In this document: in pieces, positions 9,273-17,151 of the stretch
How the letters are laid out: each line of letters opens with the position of its first letter
Position numbering within the stretch: the stretch's first letter is position 1
From: Nitrosomonas sp.
GTDB taxonomy: Bacteria > Pseudomonadota > Gammaproteobacteria > Burkholderiales > Nitrosomonadaceae
Assembly: GCA_021582655.1 (NCBI GenBank)
Contig: CP091135.1
Location: 1,368,494 to 1,416,645, forward strand
Length of the DNA: 48,152 nt
Reading direction: 5' to 3'
The notes under the pieces: model-generated
Seen by the model: only the letters and a program-made list of their open reading frames with translations
Told to the model about the DNA's origin: nothing
Database searches by the model: none
Program-made: the position numbers and the translations under genes

Positions 9273-10599
9273 ATGAAATTGACCGACTCAATCATCAAAG
9301 CGGCAAAACCCGAAGAAAATGATTATTCACTAGCAGACGGGCACGGACTGGCTTTGCTGGTGAAATCTTCCGGCGCGAAATGGTGGCGGTATCGATACCG
9401 TTTTAATGGCACGCCAAAAATGCTTTCAATCGGCGTATATCCTGACGTATCACTTAAAGAAGCACGCAATCAGCACGCACGCCTAAAAGAATTGCTGGCG
9501 CAAGGCATAGACCCTTCAGAAAACCGTAAGGAAGAAAAACAGCAAGCAGCCATTGCAGCCGCCAATAGCTTTGAATCGGTTGCCCGGCTTTGGTGGAATC
9601 ACTGGAAGCATGATAAGACCGAACGCCATGCAGACCAAACGATCCGGCGCATGGAGGCGGATATATTTCCGATCATTGGTCATAAGCCTGTGAATGAAAT
9701 CACAGCAGCCCAATTTATAGCGATGGTGCGCAAGGTTGAATCACGCGGTGCGTTGGATATTGCCAAGCGCGTATTGACCTTGTGCGGGCAGGTTACCCGA
9801 TCAGCACATTGAAGCTCCGCAATTACTCAACATGATCCGCATCATTGAACAGCGGGGTTCTTATGATCTGGCGTACCGGGTGCTGGGAGTATGCGGTCAA
9901 GTATTCCGCTATGGCATATCAAGCGGCCGTTGCACCCGTGACCCTTCCGGCGATCTGCGGGGTGCACTCACGCCGCACAAAAAGAAAAACCAGGCAGCAG
10001 TTAAACCAGAAGAATTGCCGGAATTGCCGCGATCAATCGCCACCTATGAACGCATTGGCGATAGGCAAACACAGCTTGCTTTGCAATTACTGGCGTTAAT
10101 CTTCGTTCGCACCAATGAACTGATAGGCGCGCTATGGGAAGAAATCGATATGAATAATGCGCTATGGATCGTTCCAGCTAATCGCATGAAAATGAGAAAT
10201 GAGCATGTCGTTTCCCTTACCAATCAAGCATTGAATATACTGGCCGAACTCAAAACCATCGCCGGTGATAGCCGTTACCTGCTGCCTGGAAGAAACCCGA
10301 GTAAACCGCTCAGCAACAATACTTTGCTTTTTGCGCTGTATCGTTTGGGATATAAAGGCAAGATGGCCGGGCACGGCTTTTGGGCGGTTGCTTCCACGGC
10401 ATTGAAGGAATCCGGCTTATTCAGTCCCGATGCGATAGAGCGACAATTAGCACACGGTGAAAGGAATGAAGTCCGTAGCGCACACAACTGGGCGAAATAC
10501 TTGCCGGAAAGAAAAAGAATAATGATCTGGTGGAGTAACCATATCGGGGCATTAGAAAAGGGTGCGGAAGTCATTACGCTATTCGGAAAATCGAATTGA
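9273..10599 (+). pseudogene. P4-type tyrosine integrase, chimeric and inactivated
   Basis: Two reading frames carry the two halves of a P4-family site-specific recombinase. Frame one (9273-9812, 179 residues) has the N-terminal arm-binding domain and core-binding domain. The second half opens at about 9790 (nearest ATG 9832) and runs to 10599 with the catalytic domain. The halves overlap in homology. RGALDIAKRVLTLCGQV ends the first, and RGSYDLAYRVLGVCGQV recurs near the start of the second, so the join looks like recombination between two related integrases rather than a simple frameshift. In the catalytic domain the first arginine (FVRTNEL) is kept. The usual HGFR box reads HGFW, and the usual AYNHAEYL tyrosine box reads AHNWAKYL, so the nucleophilic tyrosine appears to be histidine. 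The enzyme should be dead. Confidence 0.8.
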
Positions 10600-10890: not shown

Positions 10891-11901
10891 TTATTTACTG
10901 GCTTTCGCCCGTGATACCATATTCTTTACTGCGGTTGTCATGTTAACCGGAACAAGCTTAGTATCTTTATGAGCACTCTGGAACACCCTGAAGACTTCAT
11001 CCGCAAAAGCTTGTCCAATCTCTTCAATGCCGTCAAAGTCAAGGATTACCGTTTTGAATTTTTCAAAACGAAAGATCAGCCTTTTAGCCTGTGATCTTGA
11101 TATAAGCTTCTCACCTTCGTACTGTCCCAGCCGAACTGGAACGATTGTTTTTGCGAATGTGTATTCTTCAGGCGCTGCGAACTTATCGAAAATCTCCTTT
11201 GTTGTGCGGGTGGAATCATTTATCAACCGCATCACAACAAGCGTACCGGGTGCATTTTTGGGGCGCTCGATCAACATATCGTCCAATCCGTCCTCATGCA
11301 TGAAATGAAGGTTTCCAGATCGAATGTCAAAAAGATCGAATACTTTACTAGAGAAGAAAATTCCTTCGCCGGAATGGTTTGCTGGGTCTGTTGTGAACTT
11401 GCCCTTTGCCAGTTCTAAAATTGCTTCGCGTGGATCATACAGATCAAGAGCTTTTTGAATTTTATTGAAGATGCCTTCACCATCATCGGCAACCCAAGCT
11501 TGAGTATATAAGGCATTTCTCACACCCCAAATTGAAATTTTACTCGCGCCGGAATGGTCGATTGCATTATTAACCATTTCAGTAAAACCATAGCACCAAA
11601 TATCCTTGACGTTATCTGGTAAGTCTTTCACCAATGGCGCAAATAGCGATGACCAGACCACATCCTCACGTAACCCCTTTCTGTCGTATTCCTGATGCAC
11701 CCGGCGCAATTCAGAAAGAGTATATTCAACGCCCCGCCCAATTCCATGCTTTACGATTAATCCTTTCGCAATAGCCTTACGCAATCTTGCGCTTGCTGCT
11801 TGCCGCGATATGCCCAAGACATTGGCAAGTTTACCGGAAACATTTTTCCCGCTTTCGGAAACAAGCTTCAATAGTGTGTGTGTGGTTTCGTCAATTAGCA
11901 T
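10891..11901 (-). CDS. Winged-helix / GHKL ATPase / STAS-like (DUF4325) protein
   Basis: The 336-residue protein has three parts. Residues 1-65 form a winged helix-turn-helix (LANVLGISRQAASARLRKA). Residues 95-215 form a GHKL/HATPase fold, with N-box FTEMVNNAIDHSG (E108, N112), G1 box DDGEG (139-143) and G2 box HSGEGIF (176-182). About 245-325 form a C-terminal STAS-like domain of the DUF4325 type. The ATPase plus STAS-like pairing recalls the SpoIIAB/SpoIIAA partner-switch in one chain, here fused to a DNA-binding domain. It is probably a cytoplasmic ATP-dependent regulator; its target is unknown. The start follows directly on an array of 22-bp repeats that it may bind. Similar proteins are common in genomic islands; a defence role is possible but unproven. 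Confidence 0.75.
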   Translation of the reverse strand: MLIDETTHTLLKLVSESGKNVSGKLANVLGISRQAASARLRKAIAKGLIVKHGIGRGVEYTLSELRRVHQEYDRKGLREDVVWSSLFAPLVKDLPDNVKDIWCYGFTEMVNNAIDHSGASKISIWGVRNALYTQAWVADDGEGIFNKIQKALDLYDPREAILELAKGKFTTDPANHSGEGIFFSSKVFDLFDIRSGNLHFMHEDGLDDMLIERPKNAPGTLVVMRLINDSTRTTKEIFDKFAAPEEYTFAKTIVPVRLGQYEGEKLISRSQAKRLIFRFEKFKTVILDFDGIEEIGQAFADEVFRVFQSAHKDTKLVPVNMTTAVKNMVSRAKASK

Positions 11902-12128: not shown

Positions 12129-12964
12129 GTGGCTGCACCATTGAAATGGAACACACTTGAGGAAACGGCAGTGTGGCTTTCCGATAAAACAAAAGAAAAC
12201 TGGACACCAAGACGAATAATTGATTTTGTCATTGATCGATGCCGTCCAGATGACATCGTGGAAGATTACAAATATCCAACCTATTTACGGACTATTTACC
12301 CTAAAAATATTTCAGACTATTTGGTATGGCATCGCTACGTTTGGAAGGTTCTTTAGTCACTTATGTATCTGAAGGAATTCAGCTTAAAGATAAGGAGATT
12401 AAAACGACGTTCGTATTTAAAGACAATTTGACTGAGCTAATTTCTACAGGAAAAACCGCAATAAGCTATATTTCATACCATGATCAGTCAATATCTGAAA
12501 GGACAGACAAATTTTCCCAATCACTTGATCATGGAATAGAATCGATAACAGTTTATTGTGAGTTGCGTTCGATGATCTTTTTTACGGATGGGCCTTACCC
12601 TAAATTCCCTACTATCCCAATCATTCAAATTGATTTTAAAACCCTGGGTATCCGTGATGAAGAATTAAAACAATTGTTACGTGATTACTTGGCTTTACCT
12701 AAGAAAAAATCAGTAAAGAAGGATACCAAATTAAGTGTAATGCGAAGAGATAAAGCCGTCTTTCAAGGTATTGCGGCGGCTTTGTGGGAAAGGAATCCAA
12801 ATCTTACTCAAGCTGCAATAATTAGCCACGAAGAAATGGAGTTTTACAGAGCGACGTACACAGGAAAAAATACCCTTTTGGATTGGCCTCGTGAAATAGA
12901 CCGCTTCCTGAGGTGTTATTGGCCCGCAAGTATTCTTCAATGGGAGTTGAGGAGCGGAATATAA
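12129..12964 (+). pseudogene. Island protein of unknown function, split by a frameshift
   Basis: Two overlapping frames appear to be one gene. The first (GTG at 12129, after GAAGGGGCG, to 12356) carries an N-terminal motif, TLEETAVWLSDKTKENWTP. The second (12326-12964, about 212 residues) ends in a segment like IAAALWERNPNLTQAAI…YTGKNTLLDWPREID. That combination, an AAxWLS-type start and a LWxxxPxxTQ…DWIRxxD-type end, is a layout I associate with hypothetical proteins of proteobacterial islands. The overlap of 31 bases and the poor start of the second frame point to a single-base indel near 12320-12350. Two coupled genes remain possible. Function unknown. Confidence 0.5.
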
Positions 12965-13063: not shown

Positions 13064-14704
13064 TCAATTATCTATGATTCTTCCAGCCTCCATGTGCACC
13101 ACGCGATCAGCCACATGAAAATAGCGATCATCATGCGAAATTACTATGAGCAAATGTCCTTTTGCACGTAATTCGGGCAGCAGCTCGGTGTAGAAGAGAT
13201 GTCTGAATGTTGGGTCTTGGTCAGCAGCCCACTCATCGAATACGAGGACAGGCCGACCTTCCAGATAAGCGTGTACTAAGGCAAGACGCTTGCGTTGACC
13301 CGTCGAAAGATCAATTGTGCTGAAAGTTCCATCTTTTACTAATACCTTATGTGCAATTTCCAGACGCTGAAGATAGGGTAAAGCCATTTCTGGAAGGACA
13401 TGGGTTTTCTCTAATTCATCTGAAACCAAATCTTCAAACAAATAAAAATCCGCAAATACTGTGGTGAAAAGCTGTCGGTATTCATCACGATTTTCGGCCG
13501 CTATTGTTTTTCCATCTAGGATTACTTCACCTTCCTGTGGTACGTATAGTCCTAGTAATAGCTTGATTAATGTCGTTTTTCCTGAACCATTGTTACCAAC
13601 CACGAATACTAACTCACCGGGCTTCAGAGTCAAGTCAATTGGACCTAATACGAATCCTTTGCCATCTTCTGGCGCGTCAAAAATATACTGAACCCCGCGC
13701 AACTCAATATTTTCTTGGAATGGAATTATCGATGGCACTGACTCCAGATTTAAATGAGCTTCAGAATTTGTGAAGCGTATTGAGAGTTCATTGATACGGT
13801 TTAATGCTACTTTAGCTCGCCCGATACCCGGCAAAGCATCTATAATTTGCTCTATCGGTCCTTTAAGGAAGAGTAATACGAGTACAAAACCACTTATCGT
13901 TTCCGGCTCTGTATGCTGAATCGTTGCCCAGCCAAGAACTAAAGCTATGAGCAAAAAGAAAAGTGCTGAGCCGAATGCTGTAGCCATAACATAAGTGTTG
14001 ATTGCATTATGGTGGATGTCGCGGATACTGTCTACAGTAAGATCGATCTGATTTCTTACGCTGGTTCTGCGGGCACGATGCATACGCAATTCCTTAGCAC
14101 CTTCGCTGATGCCACGATAGCCCTTATGTAGTATTTCCTCTAAATCCCTTGCTTTCCAGAAGCCTGCAACACCTTTAGCCTGCGCCAATGCCTGAACCAT
14201 AGTGCCTAGAATTAATGCCACCATCAATAAGGCAAACAACGATGGAGAAAGCCATGCAAGATAGCCTAAGCAACCCAGAGTAATGGCTAAGGCAATAGTG
14301 GTTGAAGCCAGCGTAAAGGCTACATCACTGATCATGTCTACATCCTGCGTCAGAATGGGCATCAGACGGTAAGTACGATTACGTTCCAGAACATCGATTG
14401 GAGCACCAAGAATCTTACGTGCAAGTGTTTTGCGTATTTTGGCCACCAAACGTTGACCAACCAAATTGGCCGACATATCAGATACCACGCGTCCTATGAG
14501 TACGAGAACCGATAAAGCAGTGAAGGTTAATAGAAGATTTACTGTCAATCCTTCGGGATGATGGAGTACATGATTGATGGTATCCAACAAGGTCACAGTA
14601 GCAGCCCCAGCAGTGATGCCTGATACGGCTGACAGCAAAATCCACGGTGAGAACGACCACATCAATTGTGTGATTTCGGGCGCATGGTTGAGTCCTTTCT
14701 TCAT
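13064..14704 (-). CDS. Cyclic-peptide-type ABC exporter (SyrD/PvdE family)
   Basis: This half-transporter fuses six membrane helices (about 1-290) to an ATPase. It belongs by layout to the exporters of cyclic and modified peptides, including pyoverdine precursor export (PvdE) and syringomycin (SyrD). Walker A is VGNNGSGKTTL (about 366-376), the signature is LSTGQRKRLAL (about 464) and Walker B is PVLVFDEWAADQDP (about 482). The unusual W in DEWAADQDP is typical of this family. I chose ATG at 14704, which follows AGGAAA, over the upstream frame-open start at 14752; this gives 546 residues. It is intact. No NRPS genes are nearby. The only peptide-like candidate substrate is the repeat peptide encoded on the same strand at 16484-16729. 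Confidence 0.88.
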   Translation of the reverse strand: MKKGLNHAPEITQLMWSFSPWILLSAVSGITAGAATVTLLDTINHVLHHPEGLTVNLLLTFTALSVLVLIGRVVSDMSANLVGQRLVAKIRKTLARKILGAPIDVLERNRTYRLMPILTQDVDMISDVAFTLASTTIALAITLGCLGYLAWLSPSLFALLMVALILGTMVQALAQAKGVAGFWKARDLEEILHKGYRGISEGAKELRMHRARRTSVRNQIDLTVDSIRDIHHNAINTYVMATAFGSALFFLLIALVLGWATIQHTEPETISGFVLVLLFLKGPIEQIIDALPGIGRAKVALNRINELSIRFTNSEAHLNLESVPSIIPFQENIELRGVQYIFDAPEDGKGFVLGPIDLTLKPGELVFVVGNNGSGKTTLIKLLLGLYVPQEGEVILDGKTIAAENRDEYRQLFTTVFADFYLFEDLVSDELEKTHVLPEMALPYLQRLEIAHKVLVKDGTFSTIDLSTGQRKRLALVHAYLEGRPVLVFDEWAADQDPTFRHLFYTELLPELRAKGHLLIVISHDDRYFHVADRVVHMEAGRIIDN

Positions 14705-14919
14705 AGCAATTTCCTTTCTGTCGCACAGAATGTCTGTGCAAACAGGATTCATTACCAGTGCATCAACACCGGAAAACTTTTCTAGATTTCTTTTATTTCG
14801 AGACGATCTAATCTTGAAATTGTTTAGGATCTGTCACTTTTTATTAATGAGTGATGAGTGAAGTGGTACCGTAAAACGGGACAGCTTGTTAAGCTTTACC
14901 GTTGCCAAGGAGCAATGAG

Positions 14920-15855
14920 ATGAGTAAGAAACGCAAGCAATATCCCGGGGAATTCAAAGCTAAAGTAGCCCTGGCTGCGATACGTGGAGAGGAAACGATA
15001 CCGCACAGTTGGCGGGCTACGGATTGCATTCAACGCAAATCAACAGCTGGAAGCGTCAATTAATTGAACAAGCGGCTGCAGTATTTTCTAAAATAATGAT
15101 ACTGGAAAGGCTGAAATGCGCAGTACGGATGAATTACACCGAGTTATCGGACAATTGACGGTAGAACACGATTTTTTGGCCAGAAAGTTCAATCATTGAG
15201 TTTTGCAAAACGCAAGAAGATGATTGAGTCTAACGAGAGATTGAGTTTTTCCCGCCCGTGTCAATTACTGAATCTGGTGCGTTCGACCTATTACTATGAA
15301 CTGCAACCTGCCGATGACACACAACTGGCTTTAGTGCGAGAAATGGATGAGCAATATCTGAAAACACCCCAATAGGGTGCATGCAGTTATGCCACGTGGT
15401 TCGTGCGTCAAGGCATCATTGCCGGGCGTAAGAAGACATCAATCATGATGAAGGTTCCGGGCATAATCAGCACAGCGCCTAAACCGAAAACCAGTCATCC
15501 GAACAAGCAGCACAAAACCTATCCGGACCTGCTCAAAGGCACTGTTATCGACCGACCTAATCAAGTCTGGGCGGCGGATATCACGTATGTACCGATGCAA
15601 AAGGGCTTTGGTTACCTCATTGCCATGATGGACTGGTATTCTCGTAAAGTGCTGAGTTGGCGCTTATCCAACATGCTGGATACCGATTTCTGTGAATTGT
15701 TATATACCCAGGCATTTGACAACTTAAAGGGGGTGAGACAGAGCCTGACTCAATGGTTTGGTTGGTACAATCATGAACGTTTTCATCAAAGCTTGAATAA
15801 TCAAACACCAGACGAGGTTTATTGTCACAGCAAAACAATGCAACAGACTGCCTGA
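14920..15855 (+). pseudogene. IS3-family transposase (orfA-orfB), decayed
   Basis: The ATG at 14920 opens an orfA-type helix-turn-helix protein (MSKKRKQYPGEFKAKVALAA…) that soon shifts frame. The orfB part follows with a stop codon at the expected Trp of YLKTPQWG (near 15373). It keeps the first catalytic Asp segment (VWAADITYVPMQ). It then jumps from the QAFDN region straight to the C-terminal WYNHERFHQSLNNQTPDEVY, so the other catalytic Asp and Glu are deleted. It is therefore inactive. The right terminal repeat was not found; the sequence runs into another IS remnant. Confidence 0.85.
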
Positions 15856-16276
15856 ACCTGATTAGCCGCCTTTGGCGGAGTTTAACTTTACTTTCAGGTT
15901 GTACAGTTCTAGGGAGACACTTCAGTTCAATCAGGCGAATAATCTCGAATTTCTTAGAGGCGGAATATCTCATATACCGTCCTCCTCATCCCCGATCATG
16001 CTTTTTTAAGCAGGCGGTTTTCCATTAATAGTTCCGCAACGGTTTCTTTGAGTAGCCGGGTCTCACCACACAAGTTCCTAACTTCACCGGACGTCGCCTC
16101 GCGGGCAATATCCCCGGCTGGCCGCTTCTTTCCAGACTCCAGAATTCCTTTGACCAATGGTAATAAATATTGGTATTTGATGCTTTCCCGGCGGCATAGC
16201 TCGGCGATGCTTTCTGGATATCTCGTACCGTTTTTTCAATACTGCGATTTTGATGGTGTTTCTCTGTCATCATCAC
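15856..16276 (-). pseudogene. Second IS3-family remnant (orfA and start of orfB)
   Basis: The minus strand from ATG 16276 reads a typical orfA start (MTEKHHQNRSIEKTVRDI), then shifts frame through a region matching AELCRREGI and returns at YYHWSKEF. Near 15973 a new frame opens with MRYSASKKFEIIRLIE, the usual start of an orfB of this group. It breaks off where the other IS3 remnant begins, so one element probably truncated the other. Confidence 0.75.
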
Positions 16277-16483
16277 TCCTTTTTTAAAGTAACGATCAAC
16301 TAAAACACTCTCTTAGGCAATCAAGCTACTTTGGCCAACTTTTGCTGACGGTATACAAGTGTTTGGATGCTGGATCCCAAAACTGAGGAGATTCAAATTC
16401 CTCCAGAACCCCGTACTCCCGGCACGGGGCAGTCATTAAGAGTTGTCTTTACAGAATAACTATAATTTCTCAAAGACAGAAAT
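16277..16483. other. Spacer between IS remnant and repeat-peptide gene
   Basis: No gene seen. Two weak hairpins are present: CCCCGT/ACGGGG (16409-16429), and TGTCTTT/AAAGACA (16444-16478) just past the stop of the peptide gene. Neither is followed by a clear T-run on the minus strand, so I do not call a terminator. Confidence 0.4.
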
Positions 16484-16729
16484 TTAAATTAAAACAATTG
16501 GATCGCTTATTATGACATCTAAGCCACTAATTGGGGTTGGGCTAGCATAAATGGGGAGCGTATCATTGATTGGAACTGGATCGGCATAAATAAGTGCATT
16601 ATCTGGAGTTGGAGCAGCATAAATAGGCGGTATATTGTTGGTTGAAGTTGAAGTTGAAGTTGAAGTTGAAGTAATCTCGTTAGAAGTGATCAAAACATCG
16701 AAGTAGTTATCGTTCATTGAGCTAAGCAT
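16484..16729 (-). CDS. Repeat-containing small peptide, candidate multi-core RiPP precursor
   Basis: The 81-residue product has a short N-terminal leader-like segment (MLSSMNDNYFDVLITSNEI), a Thr-Ser linker (20-30), then three copies of IYAxPxP: IYAAPTP (36-42), IYADPVP (47-53) and IYASPTP (60-66). Short variable spacers separate them, and the tail is hydrophobic. Translation is well supported: ATG at 16729 follows TAAGGAGATA (AAGGAG complement at 16736-16741). Tandem near-identical short cores after a leader are typical of multi-core ribosomal peptides. A cyclic-peptide-type exporter lies downstream on the same strand. No modifying enzyme is visible; IS remnants on both sides may have removed it. 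I do not recognise the family, so a precursor role is an inference from layout. Confidence 0.6.
   Translation of the reverse strand: MLSSMNDNYFDVLITSNEITSTSTSTSTSTNNIPPIYAAPTPDNALIYADPVPINDTLPIYASPTPISGLDVIISDPIVLI
16641..16670. repeat. Hexanucleotide repeat (GTTGAA)x5
   Basis: Five tandem GTTGAA units encode the Thr-Ser linker of the minus-strand peptide gene. Being a multiple of three, length changes would alter linker length without breaking the frame. Confidence 0.9.
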
Positions 16730-16928
16730 GGTTATCTCCTTAATTAATCTTAATGGCTTACGCGGGTAAATTTATAAAATTAAGATATCTGATTGATGAT
16801 AAATATAAGGTTTATAAATCAATCATTCCAAATGAAGATATGTATTTATAAATTTACTGTGATGATTTTAAGTCGCTGAGAAATTGAGGCATCGCAGGAA
16901 CAGTGCGACTATTTGGTTCTTTTTTGCT

Positions 16929-17151
16929 AGGGAAGCACTGATTTTGCCATTTGCTGGAAGCGCATCATCCGACCGAATTTATCTGCAATGATGTGGCGGA
17001 GCAAGGGTTATTGCTTCACGGAGGTACCATTGTTGACGCCACATTGATCACCGTGTCTCCTTCGGCAAGGAATAAGGAAGGTGCGATACCAAGATGCATC
17101 AACCGAGGGTGGTTAATTGACTGCACTCACGTATTGGATGGCGCTAAATAA
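16929..17151 (+). pseudogene. IS5-family transposase fragment
   Basis: The frame at 16951-17151 contains HHPTEFICNDVAEQGLLL and GGTIVDATLITVSPSARNKEG, matching the first catalytic Asp region of IS5-type transposases (GTIVDAT). It stops after about 66 residues. A GGGAAGCACTGATTTT stretch near 16930 resembles an IS5-type terminal repeat, now fused to the fragment by a deletion. Inactive. Confidence 0.75.

Follow-up and report, generated by a model that had tools for sequence, protein, structure and literature searches.

A small open reading frame (ORF) on the reverse strand of the 48,152-nucleotide stretch of DNA analysed here (the window), from the ammonia-oxidising bacterium Nitrosomonas, is a real gene and, as judged by comparison with its homologues, looks functional. 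It belongs to a protein family which is very rare, restricted to one lineage and without match in Pfam, NCBIfam, PHROGs or PDB sequences. We give about an even chance to the reading that the product is a short, acidic, Lys/Arg-poor, intrinsically disordered and lineage-restricted repeat protein, which is not modified and acts by multivalency. According to this reading, an N-terminal segment of the NFFDVL type, weakly predicted as a helix, together with the hydrophobic tail would dock the protein, and three spaced motifs of the [IL]YAxPxP type would each offer a partner the same short linear motif; the binding or spacer role, the action in unmodified form and the roles of both ends are what we infer. 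The short Tyr-Pro motif, recurring within the protein and kept in its relatives, is a usable starting point for the search of such a partner.

An earlier note, made on the sequence of the window, had pointed to a small ORF carrying three IYAxPxP copies and preceded by a strong AAGGAG site, and both observations were confirmed (Table 1). The ORF starts with ATG, ends with TAA and lies six bases from the AAGGAG. The motifs IYAAPTP, IYADPVP and IYASPTP occupy residues 36–42, 47–53 and 60–66, respectively, and none out of 1000 shuffles of residues 32–81, a range excluding the Thr-Ser run, produced three 7-mers as alike. Stops in the other five frames number 5–10 for the window ORF and 2–12 for its homologues. 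Lys and Arg sum up to 0, 0 and 1 against 8, 11 and 11 Asp and Glu in the three known proteins of 81, 84 and 85 residues, and Cys is absent from the window protein. AlphaFold2 modelling of the latter returned a mean pLDDT of 52.8 and a pTM of 0.11, with a single weak helix at residues 9–15, the input alignment consisting of three rows only, so that the low pLDDT is weak evidence for disorder. A PPIY sequence within the repeats is reminiscent of PPxY, a motif known from eukaryotic ligands of WW domains; this likeness was set aside, since PP before IY is kept in just one of the three window repeats.

Table 1. Position of the repeat-protein gene and of its parts in the window.
Feature	Position	Strand	Basis
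Small repeat protein ORF, 81 aa	16484..16729	-	homologues; NG86 dN/dS 0.26–0.33
Leader-like N-terminus, residues 1–13, family pattern MLSSM[DN][DN]N[FY][FL]DVL	16691..16729	-	alignment
Hexanucleotide microsatellite encoding the Thr-Ser run, absent from two homologues	16641..16672	-	alignment and tandem-repeat detection
Repeat 1, IYAAPTP	16604..16624	-	
Repeat 2, IYADPVP	16571..16591	-	
Repeat 3, IYASPTP	16532..16552	-	
C-terminal tail, shorter than in homologues (ending ..HPIIDITLTxIL)	16487..16531	-	alignment
Ribosome-binding site AAGGAG; AGGAGATA retained in both homologues	16736..16741	-	
Upstream DNA common to window and both homologues, presumed promoter and 5' UTR	16730..16925	-	

Two homologues, 84 and 85 aa in length, were found, both in Nitrosomonas metagenome-assembled genomes (MAGs; G059 and G074). 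At E < 1e-3 the gene is thus present in 3 of the 85 genomes of the genus, the third being the window's own genome (G000; a single contig of 2.46 Mb with a listed completeness of 83%), while the remaining genus rows had E values of at least 0.0037 in the profile search and at least 0.0125 in the single-sequence search. Inspection of 10 weak genus matches, which fell inside or opposite longer frames or in frames with stops, did not reveal any similar small protein. Beyond the own genome, no match at E 0.001 was obtained by single-sequence search of 399 genomes of the order, where seven weak rows were seen at E 0.004–0.007, six of them with stops inside the match. Profile search of 369 genomes of the class gave no relative apart from the own genome, and none was found in plasmids, viral contigs and phages (the phages being searched with the window protein), nor in genome contigs queried with the single window protein. 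No family match was retrieved from Pfam, NCBIfam (two of the three proteins), PHROGs (best E 0.13) or PDB sequences (best E 0.66), and no match from Rfam. A second copy of the gene was not found in G000, and among the literature titles listed there was none on such a Nitrosomonas peptide.

Common to the three proteins are the leader-like N-terminus, the repeats and the hydrophobic tail. The conservation of residues 1–13 in both homologues, followed by the repeats, agrees with the leader-like start proposed in the earlier note, as a layout and not as a proof. On the contrary, the Thr-Ser stretch, which had been regarded as a linker, is a hexanucleotide tandem repeat of 5.3 copies and, judging from the alignment, is not part of the family plan. 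Each of the three genomes encodes three [IL]YxxPx[PS] units, at a spacing of 13 residues in G059 and G074 and of 11 and 13 residues in the window protein; a degenerate unit, NYDTPTS, is present in addition at residue 18 of the two homologues, in the part where the window protein has the Thr-Ser run. The number of repeats, expected to vary among relatives, hardly does so.

The shared start, repeats, tail and upstream DNA, together with NG86 dN/dS values of 0.33 for the pair G074–G059 and of 0.26 and 0.28 for the window gene versus each of them, make the gene look functional. A milder ratio of approximately 0.64 (dN 0.141, dS 0.220) was given by YN00, a value referring to the G074–G059 pair alone. 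Gaps within the coding DNA measure 3, 12, 6 and 3 bases. Not all repeat units are equally constant: purely synonymous change was seen only between the two IYAAPAP units of G059 (three synonymous and no non-synonymous codon differences), and over nine within-protein comparisons of [IL]Y units the non-synonymous changes exceed the synonymous ones in five, equal them in two and are fewer in two. Between G059 and G074 the peptide is 76% identical and the neighbouring MutS-like, protease and ALAD proteins 92–94%, indicating that the peptide evolves faster than its neighbours.

The homology between the window and its relatives, as determined by blastn, is confined to nt 16925–16496 and so takes in almost the entire gene plus about 195 bp upstream of it. 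Over 40 columns of the upstream DNA (nt 16874–16835) identity to the two homologues is 82% and 80%, versus 43% for unrelated flank. Scanning nt 16300–17000 for promoter consensus yielded two sites versus 2.8 in shuffles, and so gave no support for a promoter. A shared downstream terminator hairpin, apparent in the alignment, was discarded, because homology stops near the stop codon and the hairpin is absent from the scan.

The genomic surroundings of the three copies are of two kinds. In the two MAGs, G059 and G074, genes for a MutS-like protein and a trypsin-like protease flank the copy, and farther out in G074 there are EAL/GGDEF, MacB, ABC ATPase, HlyD, ALAD, YicC and RF3 genes; the order in G059 is the same by eye, the Pfam scan having covered G074. 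The window copy adjoins a NikR gene and sits amid transposase-like remnants. Since the gene and the DNA upstream of it are both conserved although their neighbours are not the same, the gene looks, from the alignments, like a stand-alone, single-gene unit equipped with a conserved upstream region of its own. A chance ORF in DNA littered with insertion sequences, to which the remnants around the window copy and the presence in only 3 of 85 genus genomes might point, is very improbable: frame, start, ribosome-binding site, repeats and upstream DNA are all conserved in two genomes with another neighbourhood, which argues strongly against it. Non-conservation of the frame in close relatives had been put forward in the earlier note as a possible refutation of the precursor role, and the frame is kept in both G059 and G074.

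As for the remnants themselves, stretches resembling transposases flank the peptide gene at nt 14902–15855 (+), 15996–16276 (-) and 16951–17151 (+); Pfam confirmed only nt 15403–15855 (+) as transposase-like (rve).

The trypsin-like protease gene in G059 and G074 lies 545 bp upstream of the peptide gene, on the same strand, and its product has a signal peptide as judged by eye. This arrangement, together with the MacB-like permease, ABC ATPase and HlyD-like protein encoded nearby in G074 (locus L016), would suit a small surface protein or a peptide exported without modification, on which that protease might act; being almost devoid of Lys and Arg, the peptide would hardly be touched by a trypsin-type cleavage. 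We regard this explanation as improbable. In the window's genome the relative of the protease (61% identical) is encoded at another locus, blastn detected no shared DNA between the peptide upstream region and the protease loci, and no hydrophobic signal-peptide core is visible, by eye, at the N-terminus.

The main alternative to an unmodified repeat protein is the precursor of a ribosomally synthesized and post-translationally modified peptide (RiPP). Multi-core RiPP precursors are encoded by short ORFs in which a leader is followed by near-identical repeated motifs with variable spacers, and the window ORF resembles them in being short and in having a conserved leader-like start, near-identical motifs and variable spacers. 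A MLSSMxDNFFDVL leader and IYAxPxP cores, acted upon by an enzyme and an exporter encoded elsewhere or belonging to unrecognised families, would account for these features as well as for the strong ribosome-binding site. Indeed, the conserved leader-like start and the variably spaced repeats, fitting a multi-core precursor too, weaken the unmodified-protein reading. On the other hand, the repeat protein differs from such precursors in its hydrophobic tail after the last repeat, in the lack of Cys and in a unit number which is nearly constant in three genomes, and no modifying enzyme or linked exporter was found for it. Overall, we consider a RiPP precursor unlikely. Of the multi-core precursor proposed in the earlier note, the real gene, its frame, the leader-like start and the conserved repeats stood, and the precursor role found no support.

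Modifying enzymes adjacent to the homologues, which the earlier proposal anticipated, were searched in the neighbourhood of the G074 gene, where Pfam scanning of 11 out of the 16 other ORFs of at least 70 aa did not detect any known RiPP enzyme. Likewise, none was found among the 13 window proteins scanned between nt 9273 and 25264. P450, lanthipeptide and non-SPASM radical SAM enzymes were absent from the scanned neighbours at both loci. This lack of RiPP enzymes among the scanned neighbours is one of the points in favour of the unmodified reading. At the genome level and at E 0.01, PqqD (PF05402), YcaO and SPASM were each found in none of the three carrier genomes, with working controls (matches in 3, 5 and 8 of 14, respectively), an absence weakened in G000 by its listed completeness; for graspetides, the MvdD-type ATP-grasp domain gave 0 of 3, with a control that was silent in all 14.

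An MNIO enzyme (DUF692) is encoded once in each of the three carrier genomes, away from the repeat-protein gene, and in all three it lies beside a small gene for a KCG-motif peptide (L066:2876-4087, L067:2931-4160 and L068:2587-3855), with six KCG in G000 and two in both G059 and G074. The adjacency suggests that MNIO and its Cys-motif peptide belong together, in what is presumably a bufferin-like system. MNIO was therefore rejected as modifier of the repeat protein, which has no Cys.

A cyclic-peptide-type exporter had been noticed downstream on the same strand, and this part stood: the gene at nt 13064–14752 (-) matches TIGR01194 with 611 bits versus a cut-off of 286 and lies about 1.7 kb from the repeat-protein gene, with transposase-like remnants between them. 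Moreover, TIGR01194 exporters are present in 34 of the 85 genus genomes, including all three peptide carriers, a coincidence expected by chance in about 6% of cases (34/85 cubed) and the sole result favouring a link. The exporter does not, however, travel with the peptide. The window exporter is 78% identical to that of another genome (G081), in which the peptide gene was not found, and shares only 38% identity with its G059 and G074 counterparts; closer to the latter (41–42%) is a second exporter encoded at another locus of G000 (1727405–1728985). G059 and G074 have one exporter each, on contigs other than that of the peptide and within a non-ribosomal peptide synthetase (NRPS) cluster having a phosphopantetheinyl transferase gene. 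The exporter–peptide link was rejected after comparison of five exporters from four genomes. A leader-like start, repeats and a nearby exporter are thus insufficient to call a peptide precursor, as the exporter link fails across relatives.

Apart from this comparison, the NRPS of both homologue-bearing MAGs (L059:18-13785 and L060:3889-16928) has at least two modules and a reductase-type terminal domain. No NRPS was recognised near the window exporter among the window proteins scanned.

A more specific form of the precursor reading, in which the gene would be the first representative of a rare class of RiPPs in ammonia oxidisers, with a Cys-free and nearly Lys/Arg-free precursor, three IYAxPxP cores, a trans-acting enzyme encoded elsewhere in the genome and a one-gene unit carried between species with its own promoter, appears to us improbable.

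The unmodified, multivalent repeat protein that we favour has its nearest parallels among short disordered repeat proteins that are rich in proline and carry their linear motifs in tandem, a kind of protein and not a single family. It shares with them the lack of a confident fold, the richness in Pro, Ser and Thr, and a motif that is kept between variable spacers, and differs from them in having no family match in the collections searched.

Elsewhere in the window, a tyrosine integrase gene is split in two frame pieces (nt 9273–9812 and 9832–10599, +), both matching the central integrase domain. It adjoins a gene (nt 10891–11901, -) whose product begins with a winged helix and ends with a STAS-like DUF4325; the nearby protein encoded at nt 12326–12964 had no Pfam match. 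The window starts with genes of multi-haem proteins, which we take to be the hydroxylamine oxidoreductase cluster.
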